Shown one piece after another: positions 30,057 through 48,966 of a stretch of DNA of 64,000 nt. The notes under the pieces were generated by a model. It was not told the DNA's origin. It made no database searches and saw only the letters and a program-made list of their open reading frames with translations. Position 1 is the first letter of the stretch. Each line of letters starts with the position of its first letter. The DNA is from Brevibacillus laterosporus DSM 25. Lineage in GTDB: Bacteria; Bacillota; Bacilli; Brevibacillales; Brevibacillaceae. The stretch lies in contig NZ_CP017705.1 of NCBI RefSeq assembly GCF_002706795.1, positions 310,001 through 374,000 of the forward strand. Reading direction: 5' to 3'. The position numbers and the translations under genes are program-made.

Positions 30057-30284
30057 TTAATCAAATGAAGGACGGAATTTAATTGTTTGCCCAGGTGTAT
30101 AGGCTGGATTGACATAGTCATGTGGGTTTGGGCTAATGAGACGTACAATTTTTCCCTCATATGAATTAATGGGTTCTACCAACATAACCGCCTCTCCCAT
30201 TTGAATTTCCTGAATCTGCTGTTTTTCTACCTGTTCCTGGTTAGCAAATATGAGCTCCATTGGCATAGCAGAGTAAATTATCAT
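30057..30284 (-). CDS. ylzJ: YlzJ-like protein
   Basis: A 75-residue protein of the YlzJ family ([17 protein letters not shown] at the start; [19 protein letters not shown] near the end). The function is unknown. It always follows tepA in Bacilli. Its ATG overlaps the tepA stop codon by 4 bp (ATGA), so translation is coupled. Confidence 0.9.
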
Positions 30285-31117
30285 TGAAACACACCTTCTT
30301 TATTCCGTCTTTCCTCAATAAGTTCATTCAGCTTCTTTAAAGCTTTACCAAGTCCGCCTACTTCATTAATTAAACCATATTTGACCGCATCTGAACCAAT
30401 TACATTGGTACCAATATCACGAGTTAATTCGCCTGTACGTAACATAAGATCACGGAATTTCTCCTCTGTAATATCAGAATTACGAGCAACAAATGAAACA
30501 ACACGATCCTGCATTTTATCAAGATACTCGAAGGTTTGCGGTACACCAATCACAAGACCTGTTAACCGAATTGGATGGATAGTCATTGTCGCCGTCTCAG
30601 CTATATAGGAGTAATTACCGGCAACAGATATTGGTACACCGATAGAATGCCCTCCGCCAAGCACGAGGGTAACCACAGGCTTGGATAATGATGAAATCAT
30701 CTCGGACAAAGCAAGACCTGCTTCAACATCTCCACCCACTGTATTTAGGATAACCATAACTCCCTCAACCTTTTGGTTCTGTTCTGCGGCCACCAATTGA
30801 GGAATGATATGTTCATATTTCGTTGTTTTATTTTGAGGTGGTAATTGAATATGGCCCTCTATTTGCCCGATAATAGTCAGGCAGTAAATATTGCTTTCCA
30901 ATTGGGGTATGTTAGTCTGACCAAGTTGAGTAATATTGTCTATTAGACGTTTTTTAGCCTCCTCTGAAGGCTCCTGCTGAGGTGCTGTTGTCTCTGGTTG
31001 CTCTTGTGACCGTGACCGTGATCGTTCTGGTTGTACCTGAGGTGTTTGTGGACTCTCCTCATTATTGATCCTATTCATTGTAAATGGCGGCTTACGTAAA
31101 TAATCTTTAGAATCCAT
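30281..31117 (-). CDS. tepA: ClpP-like translocation-enhancing protein TepA
   Basis: A 278-residue ClpP/SppA-fold protein. The core from residue about 85 includes [19 protein letters not shown], then [11 protein letters not shown] holding the likely nucleophile Ser, and [11 protein letters not shown] with the likely His. B. subtilis TepA was described as aiding protein export, and it also affects spore outgrowth. Ahead of the core is a low-complexity segment rich in Gln, Pro, Arg and Ser ([14 protein letters not shown]). ATG 31117 gives MDSKDYLRK with AGGAGG about 11 bases upstream; a Met 13 codons further in is an alternative. Confidence 0.9.
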
Positions 31118-31228
31118 CTGGCTAACGACCTCCTTTATGCTGGTTTTAGTATGGGTAAGCCATACCGAAATCATGCATTGATGGAAATGCTAGCCTGCTT
31201 ATAAGGTTGTTTCACATCGTTATTCATA

Positions 31229-31304
31229 TATTAAAAAAAACACTCCGATTCATATTGTTTGGCAAATTCGGAAGATCAGCCATCATTCATGAAGGGAGTG
31301 TTTT
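31229..31304 (-). terminator. Branched terminator of the YxeA-like gene
   Basis: AAAACACTCC (31237-31246) pairs with GGAGTGTTTT (31295-31304) across about 48 nt that fold further. The minus strand then has a T8 run. It lies 7 bp after the gene. Confidence 0.7.
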
Positions 31305-31310
31305 ATTAAT

Positions 31311-31664
31311 TTATTTACTGTCTACACCTTTATTTAAATTTTCACTTGCCTTAGCGGGAACCTCTGATTTCTGTACCTCAGTATAGGAAACTACTCCGTC
31401 AGGCTTAACATATACTTTAAGATACGCCTCTTGACGTAATTGTTTAAGGCCCTTAAATGTAATCGTCTTTTCCATACCATCTTGATCATATCCAGTTAAC
31501 GTATACTCGTACAAGTCCGAATCTGACACTTGTTTACCTTCTCCAATGATCTGGACATAATAAATATCTGCTCCTATTTTTTTGAATCGATTGTCTTCAA
31601 AAAGATAGTACAAACCGCCTAAAACTATCAAAAAAACTAAAATCCCAATAATTGCCTTCTTCAT
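31311..31664 (-). CDS. YxeA-family secreted/membrane-anchored protein
   Basis: 117 residues of the YxeA (DUF1093) family. An N-terminal hydrophobic segment (AIIGILVFLIVLGGLYYLF) acts as signal or anchor. It is followed by the OB-like YxeA domain (ADIYYVQIIGEGK, YEYTLTGYDQDGMEKTITF, LRQEAYLKVYVK). Related genes often accompany bacitracin or lantibiotic response modules, but there is none next to it here. I prefer ATG 31664 to the Met two codons upstream, because GAGGAG would be too close to the latter. It has its own terminator. Confidence 0.85.
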   Translation of the reverse strand: MKKAIIGILVFLIVLGGLYYLFEDNRFKKIGADIYYVQIIGEGKQVSDSDLYEYTLTGYDQDGMEKTITFKGLKQLRQEAYLKVYVKPDGVVSYTEVQKSEVPAKASENLNKGVDSK

Positions 31665-31779
31665 TTTCATTCTCCTCTATACGAATTCTATTGCGATCAG
31701 TATAAGGGAGTTTTACCCAATGTAACATTGAATATCCTTTCATCAATATTACATTTTTGTAAGATAAGGCATAAATCTG

Positions 31780-32822
31780 CTATCTAGAGACCATTGATCC
31801 TTTTAAAAGGGAAGCAAGCGGGAGAGCAAATTCAGGAATCCCCGCAGCATAAGGAGTATATTCATATAAGCCAAAATAAATGATTACGGAATCTCCTTTG
31901 ATATAAAACGCTTGTTGCTCATTAATCGTTTCAAATGGTGTTAGTAAATACCCATATTTTTGTTGAAATTGTTTCTTTATTTGTTGTGAAATCTCTGTTT
32001 TATAATCAGGGTTTTCTTTGAGAAGGTCTTGCAGTGAAAGAATTTTACCTGTTTTGATATCGATTGTGTAAGCAACCCGATCAACCATTCCGTGTGCTCC
32101 ACCCGTATATGTATACTGATCAAAAACGACGCTAATTAATCCGTTTTGATTATAGATAATCTCGTAATCAAGTGAGTAATCATAAGGATTTTCACCCTCT
32201 CTGATCTCCGTAGAAGCTTGAGAACCCATTTCAAAGGTTTCAAGTGCAACCTTTTCTAGCTGATCGTTTATTTTCCGTTGAATTTCTACATTGGAAGAAA
32301 GCCATTTTAATTGCGGATATTGTAGGATACGTTTGTATTATTTCTGTTGATTTTCAGTTCTTTATTCTCGAATTGTAGGTCATTTTCGGATACAAAATGG
32401 GTGCTTACAGCTTTCGTAACGGAATCCTGTGAAATAGAAAAACCCATATTTTCACAAATAACCCGCAATGGTACCAGTATGGAAGAGTCTTTGATTCGAG
32501 GGGCTTCCTCCATAAACAGCTTATGTCCATTTACGAGATAGGCATTATCTTCTACCTTCATTACTATTTCCTTTTTTGAAGATAGGATTGAAATACGTTT
32601 TGTTTGGGGCTCGTAGTATACATGAAATCGGAAATCGTTGCGTAACGTATCTAATGTTACAAATGTAGTTCCCTTGATGACTTCTCCGGCACTTCTAAGC
32701 AGTTTGGTGTCGACCAATACATCAACCTGCTTAGTAGTTTCTGCCCAGACGGAATTTGCACCGAACGTAACGCAATGAAGCATTGCTGCTACCATCAAAA
32801 TATACCCTCTTGCTTTTCTCAT
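31780..32822 (-). pseudogene. Frameshifted stalk-domain/DUF3298 secreted protein
   Basis: Two adjacent frames read as one broken gene. The 5' part (32822-32307, 171 codons, ATG with AAGGAG) has a signal peptide ending VWA-E, a 'copper amine oxidase N-terminal' stalk domain (VPLRVICENMGFSIS), and the start of a beta domain (NKELKINRNNTNVSY). It then stops at TAA 32309-32307. The 3' part continues in the -1 frame without a gap: YPQLKWLSSNVEIQRKINDQ (from about 32325), then GENPYDYSLDYEIIYNQNG and the DUF3298 (RsiV-like) domain with YTGGAHG, ending at 31780. A loss of one base near 32310-32345 explains it. No slippery heptamer is visible, so programmed frameshifting is unlikely. A sequencing error remains possible. 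Confidence 0.8.
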
Positions 32823-33310
32823 ACAAGTCTCTCCTTTATGTACAGAACCATTCCTTCTTTTTACCATGACGCGAAAAGGACAGTATATCACATGTGATGC
32901 TTGTTTGTACTCCTTCATTAGCATTTCACATACCTCGGTACAGCTTTTATTATTACTTTTCCAGGTTAACTTCTTATTCTAAAAACAACGACCCATCAAC
33001 GAAATCTTGACAGGTCGTTCATACTGTATCCCTGTTCCCACAGGCCATATATTTTATGCCTCTTTAAGAAGAAATGATTAGACTACCTGCCTGACTTCTA
33101 CATTTATTCACCCTTAACCACTTCTGTCGCCTCCAATGCTCGCATGTCATATTGCAGCCAAATCAACTGGCTAGATCGAAGCGATTTAATCAGCAGTTTG
33201 ATCAGTACGTCTTATTCGAGATGGAACTAAAAGACTAATTTATCAGACTTATATGGATCATTTTAAATTCATCCTGCCCAAAACTTTATTCCGCATCGGT
33301 TACAAATAAA
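32823..33310. other. Gap between the broken stalk gene and the glycosyltransferase
   Basis: About 490 bp. It holds the terminator-like dyad at 32987-33019, and otherwise only a 35-codon minus-strand run near 33110-33215 without a start codon (reads DVLIKLLIKSLRSSQLIWLQ). I do not recognise it. No convincing gene. Confidence 0.5.
32981..33019 (-). terminator. Probable terminator of the glycosyltransferase gene
   Basis: AACGACC (32987-32993) and GGTCGTT (33013-33019), with inner TCAA/TTGA pairing. On the minus strand GTTTTTAG follows. It lies about 290 bp beyond the glycosyltransferase stop. Confidence 0.6.
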
Positions 33311-34543
33311 TTACCTTTTTGTTATGGTACGAGTAAATTTGAACACTTCATCCGCTGCTCTTTGACGCCCTCCAGACTTATGAAATGACTGACTGATTTT
33401 TTTTGCCTTTTCCTGATAAATCGGATTTTCTAAAACCTCGTGAACAGCTTGTTTAATATCCTCTGATGATAGATTTTCAAAATCTAACAAAACCCCTGCT
33501 CCAAGCTCCTTCACCCGTTGTGCTATCATAGGTTGATCATTAACAATGGGCAGCATAACTAACGGTACTTCAAAATAAAGTGATTCACTTATGCTATTCA
33601 TACCACAATGGCTAATAAACACATTTGTGTGACGTAATACGTCTAATTGAGGGACATAATGACACACAATAAAGTTATCTGGTATATCCCCTAATTCTTC
33701 CATTGTTGTATTCTTTCCAATGCTAAGTACTACCTTACCATCTACGTCTTTTAAAGCCGTAAAGCATTTTTGATAAAGCTCTAGCTGTTGGTTTACGATC
33801 GTTCCCATAGAGATGAAGATGACTTGTTTTCCTTTTAACTCATCAATGGGAAAATCACCAAGGTGACTGCTATCTGGTATTGAAGGACCTACAAAAATAT
33901 AGTTGTCATTAAATTGCTCACTATTTCTCTGGAAATAAGAAGAAGTGAACACAATATTTAAATCAACTGGTCCAGGATTCGATAAAAAAAATCCCGCTAA
34001 TGAAACTTTATATTTGCTTTCTAATTGCTTATTACGTTCTTGTATTTTTTCCGATTGCAGAAAATTTTGAAGCGTAGTCAGCCTCTCTAGCTTCCTTTTT
34101 TCATCATCTGAGCCTGTTAGTGTCATATTTTCATGGGGATCATTTGAAAATGCAAATGTAGTCCAAGTAGCAATGGATAATAACTTACATTGGTGAGCAA
34201 TCCAGGTACCTACCATCGTTTGTGCATCGTATAAGAGATAGTCATATGTCTCATTCGTAATTTCGTTTTGTATGGTATCCGTTATCATTTCTATGGCATG
34301 TAGAAATTGCAGGAAAAACTCCACCGGCTGTGAATTCACCAAATTACTAATTTCTTGAAGTATTTCTTGCGCTCTTTGATCCACAGGCCGAAATATAGCT
34401 CCTGTTTGTTCAATTTTCTCTTGAAAATGATTGGACGAATAATAGACAATCTGCTCCCCGCGCTTTACTAAATCTGTTACTAGCCCTAACGTTGGATTTA
34501 CATGACCTTCTCCCAACATACTGATGTATAGTGCCTTTGCCAT
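33311..34543 (-). CDS. Macrolide-type (MGT/UGT) glycosyltransferase
   Basis: A 410-residue GT-B fold enzyme of the GT1/MGT group, like B. subtilis YjiC, YojK and YdhE. The N-terminal domain opens MAKALYISMLGEGHVNPTLGL. The C-terminal sugar-nucleotide motif is CHYVPQLDVL...FISHCGMNSISESL..VPLVMLPIVNDQP. Such enzymes move glucose or another sugar from UDP/TDP-sugar to macrolides, flavonoids or other hydrophobic acceptors, often for self-protection or natural-product tailoring. The acceptor cannot be predicted. ATG 34543 has GGGAGG upstream. The promoter with palindrome is at 34670-34707. It diverges from the glycolipid-binding gene. Confidence 0.9.
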   Translation of the reverse strand: MAKALYISMLGEGHVNPTLGLVTDLVKRGEQIVYYSSNHFQEKIEQTGAIFRPVDQRAQEILQEISNLVNSQPVEFFLQFLHAIEMITDTIQNEITNETYDYLLYDAQTMVGTWIAHQCKLLSIATWTTFAFSNDPHENMTLTGSDDEKRKLERLTTLQNFLQSEKIQERNKQLESKYKVSLAGFFLSNPGPVDLNIVFTSSYFQRNSEQFNDNYIFVGPSIPDSSHLGDFPIDELKGKQVIFISMGTIVNQQLELYQKCFTALKDVDGKVVLSIGKNTTMEELGDIPDNFIVCHYVPQLDVLRHTNVFISHCGMNSISESLYFEVPLVMLPIVNDQPMIAQRVKELGAGVLLDFENLSSEDIKQAVHEVLENPIYQEKAKKISQSFHKSGGRQRAADEVFKFTRTITKR

Positions 34544-34984
34544 TTGCTTCCCTCCCATAATAAAGGTTGTTCTACTCCCCATTCAGTTTTTTTACAGGAT
34601 GCCCACGGAAATCCGTTAGAACTGCTACTTGTGAATAAGGCACCCTACAAAACCAAACGAATTTATTATTTGTTTGGATTATAACAAACAATTTTATTTT
34701 TTGTCTACATTTTATTCACATCCCTTTCGTTCCGTATTCTTACGTATTAGCTATTTACAGTTTTGAATTTCTAATAAATTCAGTTCATGAAATTACACAG
34801 AAAATGAATTTGCGTAGATAAAAAAGAAATTAGGCTTACGTTTTTTTAAAAACACCATCTATTTAATGGTACAATTCTAAATAGATAGATAACTAAAGCT
34901 GAAGTATCAATCTCTACGATTTTCTCGTTTTACTTGCATTCTTATTAGGAAAAGGTAGTGAATCAGGTCATAGGAGGACGTATT
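34544..34984. other. Divergent intergenic region between glycosyltransferase and glycolipid-binding gene
   Basis: 441 bp, AT-rich, no gene. It contains the glycosyltransferase promoter and palindrome (34670-34707). On the plus side there is a TACAAT at 34870-34875 without a good -35. Both genes may be controlled from here. Confidence 0.55.
34670..34707 (-). promoter_or_regulatory. Glycosyltransferase promoter with palindromic operator over the -10
   Basis: Minus strand TAGACA (34707-34702), 18 bp, TATAAT (34683-34678). The -10 is embedded in TTGTTTG (34670-34676) / CAAACAA (34685-34691), 7-bp perfect arms with an 8-bp centre. A repressor bound there would block the promoter. The size fits a TetR- or MarR-type operator, but no regulator gene is next to it. 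Confidence 0.65.
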
Positions 34985-35557
34985 ATGGCAACAGCAACAG
35001 ATATTTTTTGGAGACCAATCGTCGGAAGCGGCTATGAACATTTGCGATTAGTAAAAGACGATTACAAGATAACGGTTGACAGTTTAGTAATTGGAAAGAC
35101 TGACGAAGGGGCAATTTTTCGTGTACAATATCAAATTATTCTTGACACGAATTGGATCGTCCGCAAAGTAACAATACAGTGTATTGGCAAAGAACATTCC
35201 CTGATACTGACCTCTAATGGGAGAGGAGAATGGCGGGATGCGCATGGAAAGGTCATCTCCGCTTTAGCAGGATGTATTGATATCGACATATCCTGTACCC
35301 CATTTACGAATACACTCCCTATCAATCGCTTAGAGCATACCCTCTCTACTCCACAGGAAATCTCTGTGGTTTACATATCAGTACCCGATCTATGTTATCG
35401 TCAGGTAAAACAGACCTATACTCTGATGAAAACAAACCATACTGAATCGATTTTTACCTATCAAAGTGGCAGTTTTACAGAAAATATCAAGGTAGATACT
35501 GACGGAATCGTCACAGAGTATCCGCAATTGTTTTTGCGCGAATATGCCCATACTTAA
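34985..35557 (+). CDS. Putative glycolipid-binding domain protein (PF06475-like)
   Basis: A 190-residue cytosolic protein that covers one domain. The pattern DIFWRPIVGSGYEHLRL at the start, NWIVRKVTIQ, GRGEWRD, ALAGCIDIDISCTPFTNTLPI near the middle and the DGIVTEYPQLFLREY end match the putative glycolipid-binding family, mostly seen in actinobacteria and scattered Bacillota. No signal peptide is seen. ATG 34985 has AGGAGG upstream, and the in-frame ATG at 34958 does not. It is the only long plus-strand gene in the middle of the window. Its divergent neighbour is a glycosyltransferase, which hints at a shared glycoside or glycolipid ligand; that is inference. Confidence 0.8.
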   Translation: MATATDIFWRPIVGSGYEHLRLVKDDYKITVDSLVIGKTDEGAIFRVQYQIILDTNWIVRKVTIQCIGKEHSLILTSNGRGEWRDAHGKVISALAGCIDIDISCTPFTNTLPINRLEHTLSTPQEISVVYISVPDLCYRQVKQTYTLMKTNHTESIFTYQSGSFTENIKVDTDGIVTEYPQLFLREYAHT

Positions 35558-35904
35558 AAATGTGATTGTCCTATATAAGGATGCGGCAAATCATATAGCT
35601 TTTGAATAGCTGCATTCAGCACAATACCTAGGCCTACTAATGAATTAGCATAAGTAGGCTTAGATTTTATGTTTTCAAATGCACGCAGGCACTCGTTAAT
35701 TTGCACTGAGTAAAAGGGGAAATAAGCTATTTTCCTTTCACTAGCAACAAATATTTTTTCAGCTAATACTGGATCATTTCATACCGACAAACCTCACAGT
35801 CCCCCTTGTTTGTTGTATTAAAAATCTTTTAAGCTGAGCTTGAGATCCTGATAGCCATACAATGAGCCTATTTTTACTGAATCGAAGCCAAATATTCCTT
35901 CCAT
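35554..35904 (-). pseudogene. Decayed minus-strand gene, unknown family
   Basis: One frame, from ATG 35904 to TAA 35554, encodes protein-like sequence broken by three stops. It begins MEGIFGFDSVKIGSLYGYQD and, after stops at 35818, 35782 and 35779, continues with 74 open codons (NDPVLAEKIFVASERKIAYF, NIKSKPTYANSLVGLGIV, AIQKLYDLPHPYIGQSHF). The composition is clearly protein-like, but I do not recognise the family. Its end overlaps the 3' end of the glycolipid-binding gene by a few bases on the other strand. No ribosome binding site precedes the ATG. It is either a decayed gene or a chance frame. Confidence 0.4.
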
Positions 35905-36082
35905 ATGCATGCAACATAAGTGCATTACTCAGGTCTGACTAGCTTAGTTGACGAAAGTTATTTTTGTAATATATTTACATTATATAAATTTTATGTATAT
36001 AATAAATCATTTAGAATGATCTGTCTACAGCGGCTTGATGATATATAGAGTCAGGTTAACTAGCAATCATAACAGTCATTTA

Positions 36083-36247
36083 TCATTTGCACCTATTAGT
36101 TGGGATGTTGACATTATCTAGTAAGATATCCCCTCCACTATCCGAAAATAGCTCGTGTGTTTTCGTAATCATGATTTCTCTCTGCTCATAGGAATTCATA
36201 CGATCATACCTACTCCCTACATCAAATCCGGTTTTAAACTCTTCCAT
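36083..36247 (-). CDS. Possible 54-residue hypothetical protein
   Basis: Minus-strand ORF MEEFKTGFDVGSRYDRMNSY to DNVNIPTNRCK. It is acidic and hydrophilic, with no membrane segment. ATG 36247 has only AAGGAA close by, while a strong site (AAAGGAG) sits 20 bases further up, ahead of an ATG in another frame that stops after eight codons. So either the start is weak or a frameshift has broken a longer gene. Family not recognised. Confidence 0.4.
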   Translation of the reverse strand: MEEFKTGFDVGSRYDRMNSYEQREIMITKTHELFSDSGGDILLDNVNIPTNRCK

Positions 36248-36311
36248 TTCCTTGTATCATGATCCACTCCTTTCTTTTTATTTATAGTTGAAGCTGTTAA
36301 AATACCTTTTT

Positions 36312-36356
36312 CAAAACAAAAAGCCAGAAACCCTTGCTGTACAAGGACTTCCGACT
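36312..36356 (-). terminator. Terminator of rnjB
   Basis: An imperfect stem around CCTTG/CAAGG, extended by GGAA/TTC and AGTC/GGCT-type pairs, with TTTTTGTTTTG on the minus strand. It lies just after the rnjB stop. Confidence 0.65.
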
Positions 36357-36376
36357 CTCTATAGCCATGTTTGGAA

Positions 36377-38056
36377 TTACACTTCCATGATGATAGGTAA
36401 AATCATTGGTCTTCTGCGTGTTTGTTCGTATAAATAACGACCAAGTGTATCTTTTACATTATTCTTAAGTGACGACCATTCATTTACTTTTTCATCCATA
36501 CATTTTTGCAGAGTTTGGGCTACGATACGATTTGCCTCTTCCATCAATTCTTCCGACTCACGTACATATACGAAGCCACGAGAGATAATATCAGGTCCAG
36601 ACACGATAGTACCATGTTGTTTACTGAGGGTAACGACAACAACCAGAATTCCATCTTGGGATAATAATTTGCGATCACGTAGAACGATGTTACCTACATC
36701 GCCTACGCCCAGTCCGTCAATAAGAACGTTGCCTGCATGCACTTTAGGACCGTATCTTGCCTGACCCTTTGCAATTTCCACGGTATCTCCATTATCAAGT
36801 AAGAAGATATTCTCAGATGCTACTCCCACCTGTTCAGCAAGTATTGCATGCATACGCTGCATACGATACTCCCCGTGAATCGGGATAAAGTATTTAGGTT
36901 TCATCAGGTTAAGCATTAAACGTAGCTCTTCCTGGCTCCCGTGTCCAGATACGTGAACGGTACCATTTGGCCCATGTCCTCCGTAAATTACTTCTGCACC
37001 TGCTCGGCATAGGTGATCGATGGTTCGGGAAACGTATTTCTCGTTCCCTGGAATTGGTGTTGCTGCTATGATTACTGTGTCTCCAGGCATCATGTCAATC
37101 TTCCGATGGGCGGATCGGGCAATACGGGTAAGCGCTGACATAGGCTCTCCCTGACTTCCTGTTGACAGAATAACTACTTGTTCTAACGGTAGTTTATTAC
37201 ATTCATCGATATCTACAATAATCCCTTCTGGAACATGTAAATATCCTAAATCCATACTTATGGTAATAACATTGATCATGCTGCGTCCTACTAAAGTTAC
37301 TTTACGATTGTATTGAACAGCAGCATCAAAAACTTGTTGGATACGATGAACATTTGATGCAAACGTGGAAACGATAATTCGCCCCTCCGCTTTATGAAAA
37401 ACTTCTTTTAATGCTTTCCCTACTGAACTTTCAGATCCAGTAAAGCCTGGACGTTCCGCGTTCGTACTGTCTGATAACAGACAGAGTACGCCTCGTTCCC
37501 CAATTTCCGCCATTTTTCCGAGATCAGCTCTTTGATTGTTTACGGGGGTTTGATCAAACTTAAAATCTCCGGTATGGACGACATAACCTTCAGGGGTTGC
37601 TAAGCATACACCGACTGAATCAGGAATACTATGATTTACTCTGAAAAACGTCGCTGTTAATGTACTGCCAAGATTTACTTCTGAATCGCTATTGATCAAG
37701 TGACGAGTGGTTGTATTTAGAATACCCGCTTCCTTCAATTTAACATCAATCAGACCTAACGTTAACTTTGTCGCATATACCGGCACATTAAGGTGACGCA
37801 ATACGTAACTTAGTCCTCCAATATGATCTTCATGTCCATGTGTAATAATAATTCCGCGTACTTTATCACGATTTTCTTCCAAATAGGTAATATCGGGGAT
37901 TACCATATCGATCCCCAGCATTTCTTCCTCTGGGAATTTGAGACCCGCGTCAATAACAACGATGTCATCATCGGTCTCTACTACGTACATGTTCTTACCA
38001 ATTTCGCCAACTCCGCCCAGGGCAAAGATAAGAACACTTTGATTCAACTTAGACAA
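36377..38056 (-). CDS. rnjB: Ribonuclease J (rnjB position)
   Basis: 559 residues: a beta-lactamase domain, an inserted beta-CASP domain and a C-terminal domain. It has endo- and 5'-exoribonuclease roles in mRNA turnover. The metal motif is intact: H73, H75, D77, H78 in ITHGHEDHIGG. Locus (between dapA and tepA) and C-terminus (RRRPMILPIIMEV) match B. subtilis RNase J2, yet B. subtilis J2 has HGHDENIGG there and is nearly inactive. This copy looks catalytically complete. The start is TTG 38056 with AGGAGG eight bases upstream. The promoter is at 38126-38155. Confidence 0.93.
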   Translation of the reverse strand: MSKLNQSVLIFALGGVGEIGKNMYVVETDDDIVVIDAGLKFPEEEMLGIDMVIPDITYLEENRDKVRGIIITHGHEDHIGGLSYVLRHLNVPVYATKLTLGLIDVKLKEAGILNTTTRHLINSDSEVNLGSTLTATFFRVNHSIPDSVGVCLATPEGYVVHTGDFKFDQTPVNNQRADLGKMAEIGERGVLCLLSDSTNAERPGFTGSESSVGKALKEVFHKAEGRIIVSTFASNVHRIQQVFDAAVQYNRKVTLVGRSMINVITISMDLGYLHVPEGIIVDIDECNKLPLEQVVILSTGSQGEPMSALTRIARSAHRKIDMMPGDTVIIAATPIPGNEKYVSRTIDHLCRAGAEVIYGGHGPNGTVHVSGHGSQEELRLMLNLMKPKYFIPIHGEYRMQRMHAILAEQVGVASENIFLLDNGDTVEIAKGQARYGPKVHAGNVLIDGLGVGDVGNIVLRDRKLLSQDGILVVVVTLSKQHGTIVSGPDIISRGFVYVRESEELMEEANRIVAQTLQKCMDEKVNEWSSLKNNVKDTLGRYLYEQTRRRPMILPIIMEV

Positions 38057-43200: not shown

Positions 43201-43363
43201 GCCGTGTTCCCCTTTCCAAACATTTTACGCAAGATAACCTGGAAACGCAAAGAATTTTTCCAAGTCCTTTGGAAAATGTAAAATAGTTGACGAACCGTTT
43301 TTTGTTCACGGTCGAGTTACATTTCGTGCACTTCGTTAATCTACCGTCATCCTATTCGAACAC

Positions 43364-43642
43364 CTATCGTTTCGTTACTGGAGATTCCTTTGAAAATTGG
43401 TTTTGTATAGGCTGTAACTGTACAATTATCATATCAGGACCGATTTGTACAATAGACTTCCAAGGAATAATGATGTCTGCTTTTTTCTTCCCTATTCCAA
43501 ATAAAGAGTTATTTGAAACAACAATGGCAGTAATTTCTCCAGTTATCGGATTAATTTCCATATCGGATTGTGCTACTACTCCACGTTTTTCTCCATAATC
43601 AATATCAACGATCTCTTTGCCACTAAACTCGCTTAATCGCAT
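43364..43642 (-). CDS. ymxH: YlmC/YmxH-family sporulation protein
   Basis: A 92-residue PRC-barrel protein (MRLSELSGKEIVDI-type start, here MRLSEFSGKEIVDIDYGEKR; IIPWKSIVQIGPDMIIVQL near the end). B. subtilis has it next to spoVFA and mlpA. The role is unknown, and it is counted among sporulation genes. ATG 43642 has AAAGGAGG upstream. Confidence 0.92.
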   Translation of the reverse strand: MRLSEFSGKEIVDIDYGEKRGVVAQSDMEINPITGEITAIVVSNNSLFGIGKKKADIIIPWKSIVQIGPDMIIVQLQPIQNQFSKESPVTKR

Positions 43643-43756
43643 TTTATTTCCTCCTTTGTTTGTCCACTCACAGCAGAATATACGAAAAAGCTGAACAGTT
43701 TATACGTAAGAATGTAGCAAAAGAGAATTTTTTCTAAAATAATTATGAGATTACCA

Positions 43757-43803
43757 ATAAAAAAGAGGCTTCTCTCTAAGCCTATTACGACTTAGGAGAA
43801 GCC
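43757..43803 (-). terminator. Terminator of dut
   Basis: GGCTTCTC (43768-43775) and GAGAAGCC (43796-43803), with inner CTTA/TAAG pairs. TCTTTTTTATT follows on the minus strand. Confidence 0.85.
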
Positions 43804-43817
43804 CTTTCTCCACTCAC

Positions 43818-44270
43818 TTATTTACCAGTAGAACCGAATCCACCTGCACCACGCTCTGTTTTCTCCAACTCGTCAACAATTTCTAATCGTGCTTGAGTCA
43901 CTGGCATAAAGAGTAATTGGGCAACTCGATCTCCTTTTCTGACCACAAATGGTTCAGTTGTGTCTAAATTCTGCAACAGCACTTGAATCTCACCCGTATA
44001 ATCACTATCAATAACTCCGACGGCATTCGTTAATGATATACCGTGTTTAAACGCGTTGCCGCTACGTGGGAACACCAAACCTACCATACTCGCGTCAGGC
44101 ATTTGTACAGCAATCCCTGTAGGAATTTTGGCGCGTTCCCCAGGAGCAATCGTAATTTCCTGTTCAATGCATGCTGCTAGATCAAGTCCAGCAGAACCTG
44201 TTGTTGCATAATGCGGTAAAGGAATATCCGTTCCAATCATCGGAGACATTTTCTTAATGTTTACAAACAC
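43818..44270 (-). CDS. dut: dUTP diphosphatase (trimeric)
   Basis: Hydrolyses dUTP to dUMP, keeping uracil out of DNA. 150 residues with all five motifs: AGLDLAA, PRSGNAFKHGISL, GVIDSDYTGEI, KGDRVAQLLF and the C-terminal ERGAGGFGSTG. GTG 44270 fits the AGAGGTG site better than an upstream GTG, which is part of that site. It lies 16 bp after mlpA. B. subtilis 168 has only prophage-type dUTPases (YncF, YosS) elsewhere, so a chromosomal dut in this cluster is a difference. Confidence 0.95.
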   Translation of the reverse strand: MFVNIKKMSPMIGTDIPLPHYATTGSAGLDLAACIEQEITIAPGERAKIPTGIAVQMPDASMVGLVFPRSGNAFKHGISLTNAVGVIDSDYTGEIQVLLQNLDTTEPFVVRKGDRVAQLLFMPVTQARLEIVDELEKTERGAGGFGSTGK

Positions 44271-45713: not shown

Positions 45714-46694
45714 CTACGGTAAACGACGGCTAGAAATTACCTCTGAAACAGTCGTTGGTTTCAATCCTTTTTTCTCAGCCAGTGTCAACATTTGATCCAG
45801 TCCTTGAGCTGAAGGTTCAGTAGGGTGCATCAGTATGAGTACTCCTTTATCTAACTTCTTGCGAATACGCTCTACCATCGTTCCAACCGGTGGATTCTTC
45901 CAATCAACAGTATCTGCTGTCCAAAGAATTGTCTTCATTTGGTAATCCTGATGCGCAATTTCTACCACCCGTTGATTAAAGGAACCAGATGGTGGAGCAA
46001 ATAAAGTAGGTTTTAAGCCGATTGTCTGAGAAATGATGTCTTGCGTTTTACTGATCTCTTGGCGAATACGTGCCTCTCCCAGCTTGCTCATATCTGGATG
46101 AGAATACGCATGGTTGCCTATTTCATGACCTTTGTCATAAATTTTCTTCGCTAGCTCGGGGTTTCGTTTGACCCAAGATCCATCTAAGAAGAATGTGGTT
46201 TTTACTTTATGCCTATCTAATGTAGTAAGAATTTTATCAAGGTATTCATTACCCCAGGCCACATTAATCATGAAGCTTACTGCTTCTTTTTTGGGATTAC
46301 CTCTATAAATAGGATGAGCCCCTAGCTGTTCTACCTGTACCTTTGGCATCTGCTCTTTAAAAACAATTGCACTTTCATCCTGCTTGCCTGTTTTCTTCAT
46401 TTGGGCAATCGTTGCGTTAATATCGATTACTCGTCCGTTATATCCGGGAATCGCTTTCCAAACAGGATCAAGATAGGCGTCTTGTGGTGCTTCCTCTCGC
46501 TCCTTTTGCCACTGCTCTATTTTTTCTCTAAATGGCTCTTCAATTGTAATTTGACCTTGCACTGGAGTAACGCCAACTTTTAGTTGTGTAACATATGTGC
46601 TAACAGGAGATGAGGTTACTAAGCCAAACAGTAACGCTCCACAAACAGTTGCTACCGCCATATATTTTCTTGTTTTTTTGGAATGCTGTTTCAC
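45714..46694 (-). CDS. ylxY: Polysaccharide-deacetylase-like sporulation protein YlxY
   Basis: A 326-residue exported protein: N-terminal hydrophobic anchor (about 13-33), then a NodB-type deacetylase barrel (about 130-325). The metal HxxxH segment is present (GHEIGNHAYSHPDMS). But the first NodB motif, normally TFDDG with two Asp, reads MINVAWGN, so the usual catalytic base and a metal ligand are missing. B. subtilis YlxY shows the same. It is probably a non-classical or inactive deacetylase, linked to sporulation by family. The start is GTG 46694 with AAAGGTGA upstream. Confidence 0.9.
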   Translation of the reverse strand: MKQHSKKTRKYMAVATVCGALLFGLVTSSPVSTYVTQLKVGVTPVQGQITIEEPFREKIEQWQKEREEAPQDAYLDPVWKAIPGYNGRVIDINATIAQMKKTGKQDESAIVFKEQMPKVQVEQLGAHPIYRGNPKKEAVSFMINVAWGNEYLDKILTTLDRHKVKTTFFLDGSWVKRNPELAKKIYDKGHEIGNHAYSHPDMSKLGEARIRQEISKTQDIISQTIGLKPTLFAPPSGSFNQRVVEIAHQDYQMKTILWTADTVDWKNPPVGTMVERIRKKLDKGVLILMHPTEPSAQGLDQMLTLAEKKGLKPTTVSEVISSRRLP

Positions 46695-46787
46695 AATTTC
46701 ATCACCTTTGCTTTTATCTATCGAGTTCTTCTTCCTTATTCTCTATCCTCTTTGTCCAATCTATGTAGAGAAAGTTCTCGATAGAAG

Positions 46788-46835
46788 CAAAAAAAGCTTG
46801 CACCCACATAGTTTCCCATGATCGGCAAAGCTTTT
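46788..46835 (-). terminator. Terminator of pnp
   Basis: AAAAGCTT..GC with GC..AAGCTTTT arms around a structured loop. T7 follows on the minus strand. It lies 11 bp after the pnp stop. Confidence 0.75.
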
Positions 46836-46845
46836 TGGCTATCTA

Positions 46846-48966
46846 TTATTCAGTTGCTTCTGGTGCAGCTTGTGCTTGTTCTTTTAGAACAGCTTTACGC
46901 GAAATATTAACGCGACCTTGGTCATCAATCTCCGTTACTTTAACCAAGATTTTATCACCTACAGAAACTACATCTTCCGTTTTAGCAACGCGCTCTTCCG
47001 CTAGTTGTGAAATGTGGCAAAGTCCTTCTTTACCCGCAAACAACTCGATGAAAGCCCCGTATTTTTCAACACGTTTAACAGTTCCCAAGTAAGTTTGACC
47101 AACTTCTACTTCGCGTACCAAATCCTCGATGATTTGTTTTGCACGTAGGTTCGCTTCTGCATTCGTAGATGCGATAAAGATACGACCATCTTGCTCAATA
47201 TCGATTTTAACACCTGTTTCTTCGATGATCTTATTGATAATACGACCTTGTGGCCCAATAACGTCACGAATTTTTTCTGGGTTAATTGACATTGTCATGA
47301 TCTTTGGTGCGTAAGGAGACAAGTGATCACGCGGAGCATTGATCGTAGCTAGCATGCTTTCAAGGATATGCATTCTGCCTTCCTTCGCTTGCGTCAATGC
47401 TTGCTCTAGGATTTCACGGTTGATACCTTCAATCTTGATATCCATTTGAAGAGCTGTAACACCTTCAGCCGTACCTGCTACCTTAAAGTCCATATCTCCC
47501 AAGTGGTCTTCCATGCCTTGGATGTCTGTCAAGATGGAGAAATGTTCACCATCTGTATCCATGATCAAGCCCATTGCAATACCGGCAACTGGTGCTTTAA
47601 TTGGTACCCCGGCATCCATCAATGCAAGAACACTACCGCAAATAGACGCTTGAGAAGTAGAACCATTAGATTCGATTACCTCTGATACTAGACGAATTGT
47701 ATATGGGAATTCTACTTCACTAGGGATGATTGGTTCAATTGCTCTTTCACCCAATGCACCGTGACCGATTTCGCGACGACCTGGAGGACGAAGTGGACGT
47801 GCTTCCCCTACACTGTATGGCGGGAAATTGTAATGATGCATGAAGCGTTTTGTTTCTTCAAGACCAAGTCCATCCAAAATTTGTACATCACCGAGTGCTC
47901 CTAATGTACAAACGCTCAATGCTTGGGTTTGACCGCGAGTAAATAAACCAGAACCGTGTGTTCTAGGTAAAATACCCACTTCGCTCGACAATGGACGGAT
48001 TTCAGTAAGTGCACGACCATCTGGGCGAACTTTTTCATGCGTAATGAGACGACGAACTTCCTCTTTAACCATGTTGTAAAGAATTTCGCTAATTTCTCCC
48101 GCATGTTCTGGATATACCTCAGCAAAATGTGCTTGTGTATCTTCTTTAACAGCATCGATCGCTTCAGCACGAGCGTGTTTCTCTTCTACGCGAACTGCTT
48201 CACGTATTTTCGCATCAGCAAAAGCACGCACAGCTTGGTCAATTTCTTCGTCCACACTATGCAATACTACTTCCATTTTTTGTTTGCCAATTTCAGCTAC
48301 GATGTCATTTTGGAAAGCAACGATTTTCTTGATGTAATCGTGACCATGCATGATCGCTTCTAACATAATTTCTTCCGGTACTTCTTTTGCACCAGCCTCT
48401 ACCATGTTAATAGCGTCCATCGTACCTGCTACCACTAGATGAATATCACTTTTCTCTTGCTCAGCAATCGTAGGGTTGATAATAAATTTACCATCGATAC
48501 GACCTACAATAACACCTGCAATCGGACCATTAAATGGAATTTCAGATGTGCTTAATGCAGCAGAAGTACCAATCATTGCTGCGATTTCTGTTGAACAATC
48601 CTGATCAACGGAAAGAACAGTATTTACTACTTGTACATCATTACGGAAGCCTTCCAAGAATAGAGGGCGGATTGGACGGTCAATTAATCGGCTCGCCAAA
48701 ATAGCTCTCTCGCTTGGGCGACCTTCTCGCTTAATAAATCCACCTGGAATTTTACCTACTGCATATAAGCGTTCTTCATAGTTTACCGTTAATGGAAAGA
48801 AATCCAAGTCTTTTGGCTCTTTAGAAACGGTAACCGCAGATAGAATGGTGGTATCTCCGTAACGCACTAAGACCGAACCTTGTGCCTGTTTTGCAACTTT
48901 TCCAAACTCAAGCGTAAGTTTTCGGCCTGCTAAATCAAAGTCGAAAGTACGATATTGTTGCTCCAT
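46846..48966 (-). CDS. pnp: Polynucleotide phosphorylase
   Basis: A phosphorolytic 3'-5' exoribonuclease, 706 residues. Two RNase PH domains flank a helical domain. The active-site region includes [30 protein letters not shown] and later [23 protein letters not shown] domain ([23 protein letters not shown]) and an S1 domain follow. ATG 48966 gives [17 protein letters not shown] lies about 12 bases upstream, a long spacing. It follows rpsO, as is general in bacteria. Confidence 0.97.

Follow-up and report, generated by a model that had tools for sequence, protein, structure and literature searches.

What accounts for the block of genes that separates rnjB from tepA in Brevibacillus laterosporus DSM 25, and does it mark a point of repeated gain and loss inside an otherwise conserved block, as an earlier note on this DNA proposed? 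The window analysed, that is, the whole stretch of DNA under study, covers positions 310001-374000 (64 kb) of a single-contig genome of 5.4 Mb (G000 in what follows). In it, the rnjB-tepA interval measures 5202 bp, close to the 5 kb originally estimated, and is AT-rich as described, with a GC content of 36.2% compared to 41.0% for the window. The interval and its flanks are organized as follows (window coordinates, from rnjB to tepA):

36377..38056, minus strand: rnjB (RNase J family by Pfam/NCBIfam), fixed flank and host of the predicted attachment site; adjoins the interval in 39/39 family genomes.
36377..36388, minus strand: predicted attB core ATGGAAGTGTAA, the last rnjB codons M-E-V-stop, unoccupied here; core plus terminator recurs only at the far end of the G004 and G008 elements (see below).
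36316..36362, minus strand: rnjB intrinsic terminator, part of the repeated att segment; RNA fold of -24.9 kcal/mol, z -4.1; duplicated around the G004 element.
36282..36304, minus strand: possible decayed integrase arm repeats (weak), resembling the G004 attL arms; 23/1000 shuffles equal.
35558..36281, no strand: debris without the ~350 bp carrying a helix-hairpin-helix-like ORF in G003 and G004 (alignment, ORFs).
34958..35557, plus strand (opposite): Glycolipid_bind (PF06475) gene; Pfam E 3.5e-51.
33311..34582, minus strand: macrolide-family glycosyltransferase (TIGR01426, PF00201); NCBIfam score of 331 bits, cut-off 260.
33020..33310, no strand: second stretch of debris, non-coding, without long ORF; gapped alignment to G004.
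32987..33019, minus strand: intrinsic terminator with a 13-bp stem (terminator scan); fold z -3.1.
31780..32924, minus strand: stalk (Cu_amine_oxidN1) plus PdaC/DUF3298 pseudogene; one-base frameshift near 32325, leaving two ORFs, 32307-32924 and 31780-32229, both on the minus strand.
31311..31670, minus strand: YxeA/DUF1093 family gene (PF06486, TIGR01655).
31233..31307, no strand: hairpin closing the pocket before tepA; folds on both strands, z -5.6 and -4.7.
30281..31174, minus strand: tepA (Clp protease fold), fixed flank; adjoins the interval in 39/39 family genomes.

All of the genes named in the earlier note were thus recovered as ORFs or through Pfam/NCBIfam matches, and the stalk gene proved to be broken, as had been read from this sequence: its two ORFs correspond to one intact frame of 379-381 aa in the two closest species (G003 and G004), the frameshift being found only in G000. 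The claim of several separate terminators stands for three strong hairpins (z -4.1, -3.1 and -5.6 in the list above), although a simple scan of the 28-40 kb portion of the window found 8 terminators against 8.2 expected, hence no overall excess. A 60-bp segment of the second debris stretch (33024-33084) has 78-79% matches at C1:267205 and C1:1420654 and is possibly a small dispersed repeat. As to nomenclature, the best match of the RNase J gene in the window is the RNase J1 (RnjA) model, slightly below its cut-off; a second RNase J, 56% identical to this copy, maps at 2.525 Mb, and the name rnjB rests on gene order.

The alignment across relatives suggested in the earlier note was carried out on 39 Brevibacillaceae genomes, one per species, in each of which tepA and RNase J were located; the members of this family that carry a name in the public collection are Brevibacillus. 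Distances between adjacent genes were taken for eight genes around the pair. The flanks proved to be fixed: both genes were found in 39/39 genomes, on one contig and in the expected order in 38 of them, the contigs of G004 breaking between the two. The DNA between the flanks varies in length from ~0 to 41.8 kb; its median length is 103 bp, and most genomes have less than 160 bp. The gap reaches 2 kb in nine genomes: G000 (5.2 kb), G001 (13.2 kb), G003 (5.5 kb), G004 (at least 14.6 kb, given the contig break), G008 (41.8 kb), G032 (3.4 kb), G033 (9.3 kb), G035 (5.3 kb) and G038 (2.7 kb). For the six neighbouring intervals, the corresponding numbers are 0, 0, 3, 0, 0 and 0, the three (of 38) all concerning dapA-rnjB. 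Among 71 loci from other Bacilli in the named collection, the rnjB-tepA gap is at most 744 bp, none reaching 2 kb. When the 64 kb window was compared with four more distant genomes, no multi-gene block other than the pocket was missing from all of them.

The pockets of separate lineages have no genes in common, apart from the G000/G003/G004 trio and some short-domain similarity. In that of G001, a spore germination operon is accompanied by an aldo-keto reductase gene and by PTS/NanE genes. Genes of the acetoin-dehydrogenase type occupy the G033 pocket; a PLP-dependent enzyme and a LysR regulator are encoded in G032, an M28 peptidase together with AzlC in G035 and a cation efflux protein in G038, while G008 contains a prophage. 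Since the large-gap genomes are scattered on a five-protein tree, at least six separate gains can be counted, as judged from these sequences. The same order of the same genes in all relatives, the pattern that would speak for ancestral content, is confined to the two closest species and reflects common descent. The same two core flanks hence enclose unrelated contents, gained repeatedly and more often than in the adjacent intervals, and the proposal of repeated gain and loss inside a conserved block is supported. In our estimate, the probability is about 0.8 that the interval acts as a hotspot of recurrent insertion in Brevibacillaceae and that at least one of its drivers is an attB site in the last rnjB codons.

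Some further flexible points were seen in this block. On the other side of rnjB, between dapA and rnjB, a germination-type (GerA/permease/GerAC-like) block of 3.4-4.5 kb is found in three related species (L153, L140 and L129 from G008, G026 and G015, respectively); the rnjB-tepA pocket of G001 also begins with a ger operon. In G002, the gaps matching window positions 43287-43818 and 46694-46846 are ~2 kb and ~4 kb longer.

The comparison also extends the hotspot idea to the reason why the site is hot, by pointing to the rnjB 3' end as an integrase attachment site. In each of G004 and G008, which belong to different genera, an element begins precisely where rnjB ends, and its far end is marked by a second copy of the last codons, ATGGAAGTnTAA, together with a terminator. 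The G008 element is a prophage, with a tyrosine integrase gene 121 bp from the rnjB stop and prophage genes beside rnjB; its far end reads ATGGAAGTTTAA and then a terminator. The G004 element, in the genus of the window, is degenerate. It spans the contig break, its sole integrase trace being a fragment of the SAM-like domain, and includes a Cro/C1-type regulator as well as a radical SAM gene next to a gene for a short peptide. Here, a direct repeat of the rnjB end and terminator, consisting of 43 perfectly matching bp and a further 18 bp, is located ~8.7 kb into the tepA-side contig, and the same old pocket as in G000 lies beyond the repeat, i.e., on the tepA side. In G000 and G003 the site is uninterrupted. 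When 16 gaps were scanned for the core followed by a strong terminator, only the G004 and G008 places were returned. Paired TTGACA-like repeats occur inside both ends of the two elements; their position and repetition suggest that they are integrase arm sites. In all occupied sites, the rnjB frame is open to M-E-V-stop, leaving the target gene intact. The second core and terminator in G004 and G008, in flanking direct repeats that include the gene end, the integrase beside the site in G008 and the scars in two other genomes (see below) identify the rnjB end as a predicted attB.

Two observations concern the contents of these genomes. The radical SAM gene of G004 and the 66-aa peptide gene that follows it (L118:12708-14011) look like a small RiPP cluster. 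In G008, a gene for a 421-aa exported protein (L155:10013-11278) is found between attR and tepA, which suggests that cargo was already present at this site when the prophage arrived. The best integrase relatives among sequenced phages are ~43% identical, for which reason attP was not read from a phage. Searches of viral contigs gave five matches to the rnjB-end pattern, none with RNase J homology, and 35 to the arm pattern, none with rnjB, tepA or integrase.

Traces of the same kind were found in G030, where the gap is 263 bp, and in G035, a member of another genus with a gap of 5.3 kb. In both, the ~100 bp directly following the rnjB stop resemble the attL of G008 and comprise an element-type terminator and paired TTGACA arm repeats. 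Similarity to the G008 left end scores 107 for G030 and 95 for G035, shuffled sequences reaching 44 at most; the species that are sisters to G035 have a different terminator and no such resemblance. The simplest reading would be past integration followed by deletion. A search of 399 genomes of the class for the core-spacer-arm pattern gave six matches, of which four lie at rnjB. The other two matches (G026 and G355) were attributed to chance, as they do not lie at rnjB and a reversed control also gave one.

These data can be accommodated by a model in which elements with tyrosine integrases (prophages or prophage-like) use an attB in the last rnjB codons. An incoming element would recombine at ATGGAAGT.TAA and bring a new rnjB stop and terminator, so that RNase J would stay intact, while the old rnjB end and terminator would be displaced outward as attR. 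The rnjB-proximal copy could then act again as attB, allowing elements to stack, decay by deletion and leave cargo beside tepA. Tyrosine-type integrases presumably made the insertions, and stacking may be the rule. It is conceivable, though we consider it unlikely, that in Brevibacillaceae a lineage of elements with tyrosine integrases has specialised on the rnjB 3' end, carrying its own rnjB end and terminator and restoring attB with each insertion; the interval would then be a layered record, newest by rnjB and oldest by tepA, and swapped terminators would alter read-through from rnjB into tepA.

Did the pocket of the window itself come through this site? It sits on the tepA side of the site, like the older pocket in G004, and the first bases after the rnjB terminator weakly resemble decayed arms (23 of 1000 shuffles were as good). 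However, no second core, no direct repeat beyond chance and no attL/attR pair were detected around the 5.2 kb, and the pocket is accordingly not called an element. We put its arrival through attB at about even odds; homologous recombination at the flanking genes would be the main alternative. A wider form of this alternative, in which recombination between conserved flanks mainly drives the hotspot by swapping in contents, with attB elements in a minor role, appears to us possible but rather doubtful. It would suit the G001, G032, G033 and G038 pockets, whose genes are of ordinary chromosomal types, the listed or annotated ORFs including no mobility gene, and in which neither integrase nor att copy was found (in G033, a 13-bp match to the core lies within a coding gene of the pocket and has no terminator, and was judged a chance occurrence). 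It would also agree with a survey of 80 species in which half of the hotspots were without mobile-element evidence and flanking core genes recombined more (PMC5635113). Flank recombination would not, however, account for the exact att-like duplications of G004 and G008, for the scars of G030 and G035 or for the restriction to Brevibacillaceae.

Whichever way it arrived, the G000 pocket is an old layer in decay. The same genes in the same order make up the pocket in G003 and G004, by descent. Beyond the frameshift in the stalk gene, the rnjB-side debris of G000 lacks ~350 bp present in both G003 and G004 and containing an ORF of 72-84 aa, whose G004 copy gives a weak HHH_5 / RNA_pol_A_CTD match; with three genomes compared, this difference could represent either a loss in G000 or a gain in the sister species. 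The Glycolipid_bind protein is 89-97% identical in G003/G004, and the glycosyltransferase 92-96%. The latter scores above the macrolide-family cut-off, and its relatives in other family members reach at most 39% identity; it may plausibly have a detoxifying or natural-product role. A function common to the cargo genes is not apparent, strands and terminators being separate and one member broken.

The conservation of gene order in the trio, and the existence of Glycolipid_bind homologues in other family members, might be taken to mean that the pocket is ancestral content lost from other relatives rather than a gain. This we regard as highly improbable: the gap is short in the outgroup loci and in most members of the family, the next relatives (G001 and G002) are both without the pocket genes, and homologues elsewhere lie at other loci and are only ~50% (Glycolipid_bind) or 39% (glycosyltransferase) identical, none of the 39 family genomes outside the trio having the same cargo between rnjB and tepA. 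The idea that the large gaps result from misassembly or contamination hardly deserves credit, for although G004 and G008 are draft genomes and G032 and G033 show 7-9% contamination, G000 is a single contig, the interval lies inside contigs of ~4-5 Mb in G003 and G035, and both flanks are on one contig in G001, G033 and G038.

Insertion at an attB in rnjB has well-studied counterparts. Streptococcal ICEs and IMEs integrate at the 3' end of the housekeeping genes rplL, rpsI, lysS, rpmG and guaA, and share with the present case a tyrosine integrase, restoration of the gene end by direct repeats, the presence of decayed elements and the accretion of elements in tandem at a single site (PMC4701971, PMC5704250). 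They differ in that integration here targets an RNase J gene, with a prophage rather than a conjugative element as the clear occupant, and the repeat at rnjB spans the stop codon and terminator. Islands and prophages associated with dusA likewise comprise many dissimilar elements that target one conserved gene and replace its end with element sequence, but in Proteobacteria these target the 5' end of dusA, unlike the Brevibacillaceae elements, which target the 3' end of rnjB (PMC4482086). Core-gene transfer hotspots have fixed core flanks, unrelated contents and many occupants without visible mobility genes, but are defined within species, whereas the one described here is seen between species of one family (PMC5635113). 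In the literature searched, no paper linked RNase J with attB or an attachment site, an absence that is no proof of novelty. The rnjB 3' end is a new site for a kind of integration already known, and involves no new principle. What had been an accessory pocket becomes a defined integration site for which a core, arm repeats and an empty-site sequence are predicted, adding rnjB to the conserved genes whose ends are used by integrases and providing a landmark by which prophages and cargo islands may be located in a genus that serves in protein production and biocontrol.
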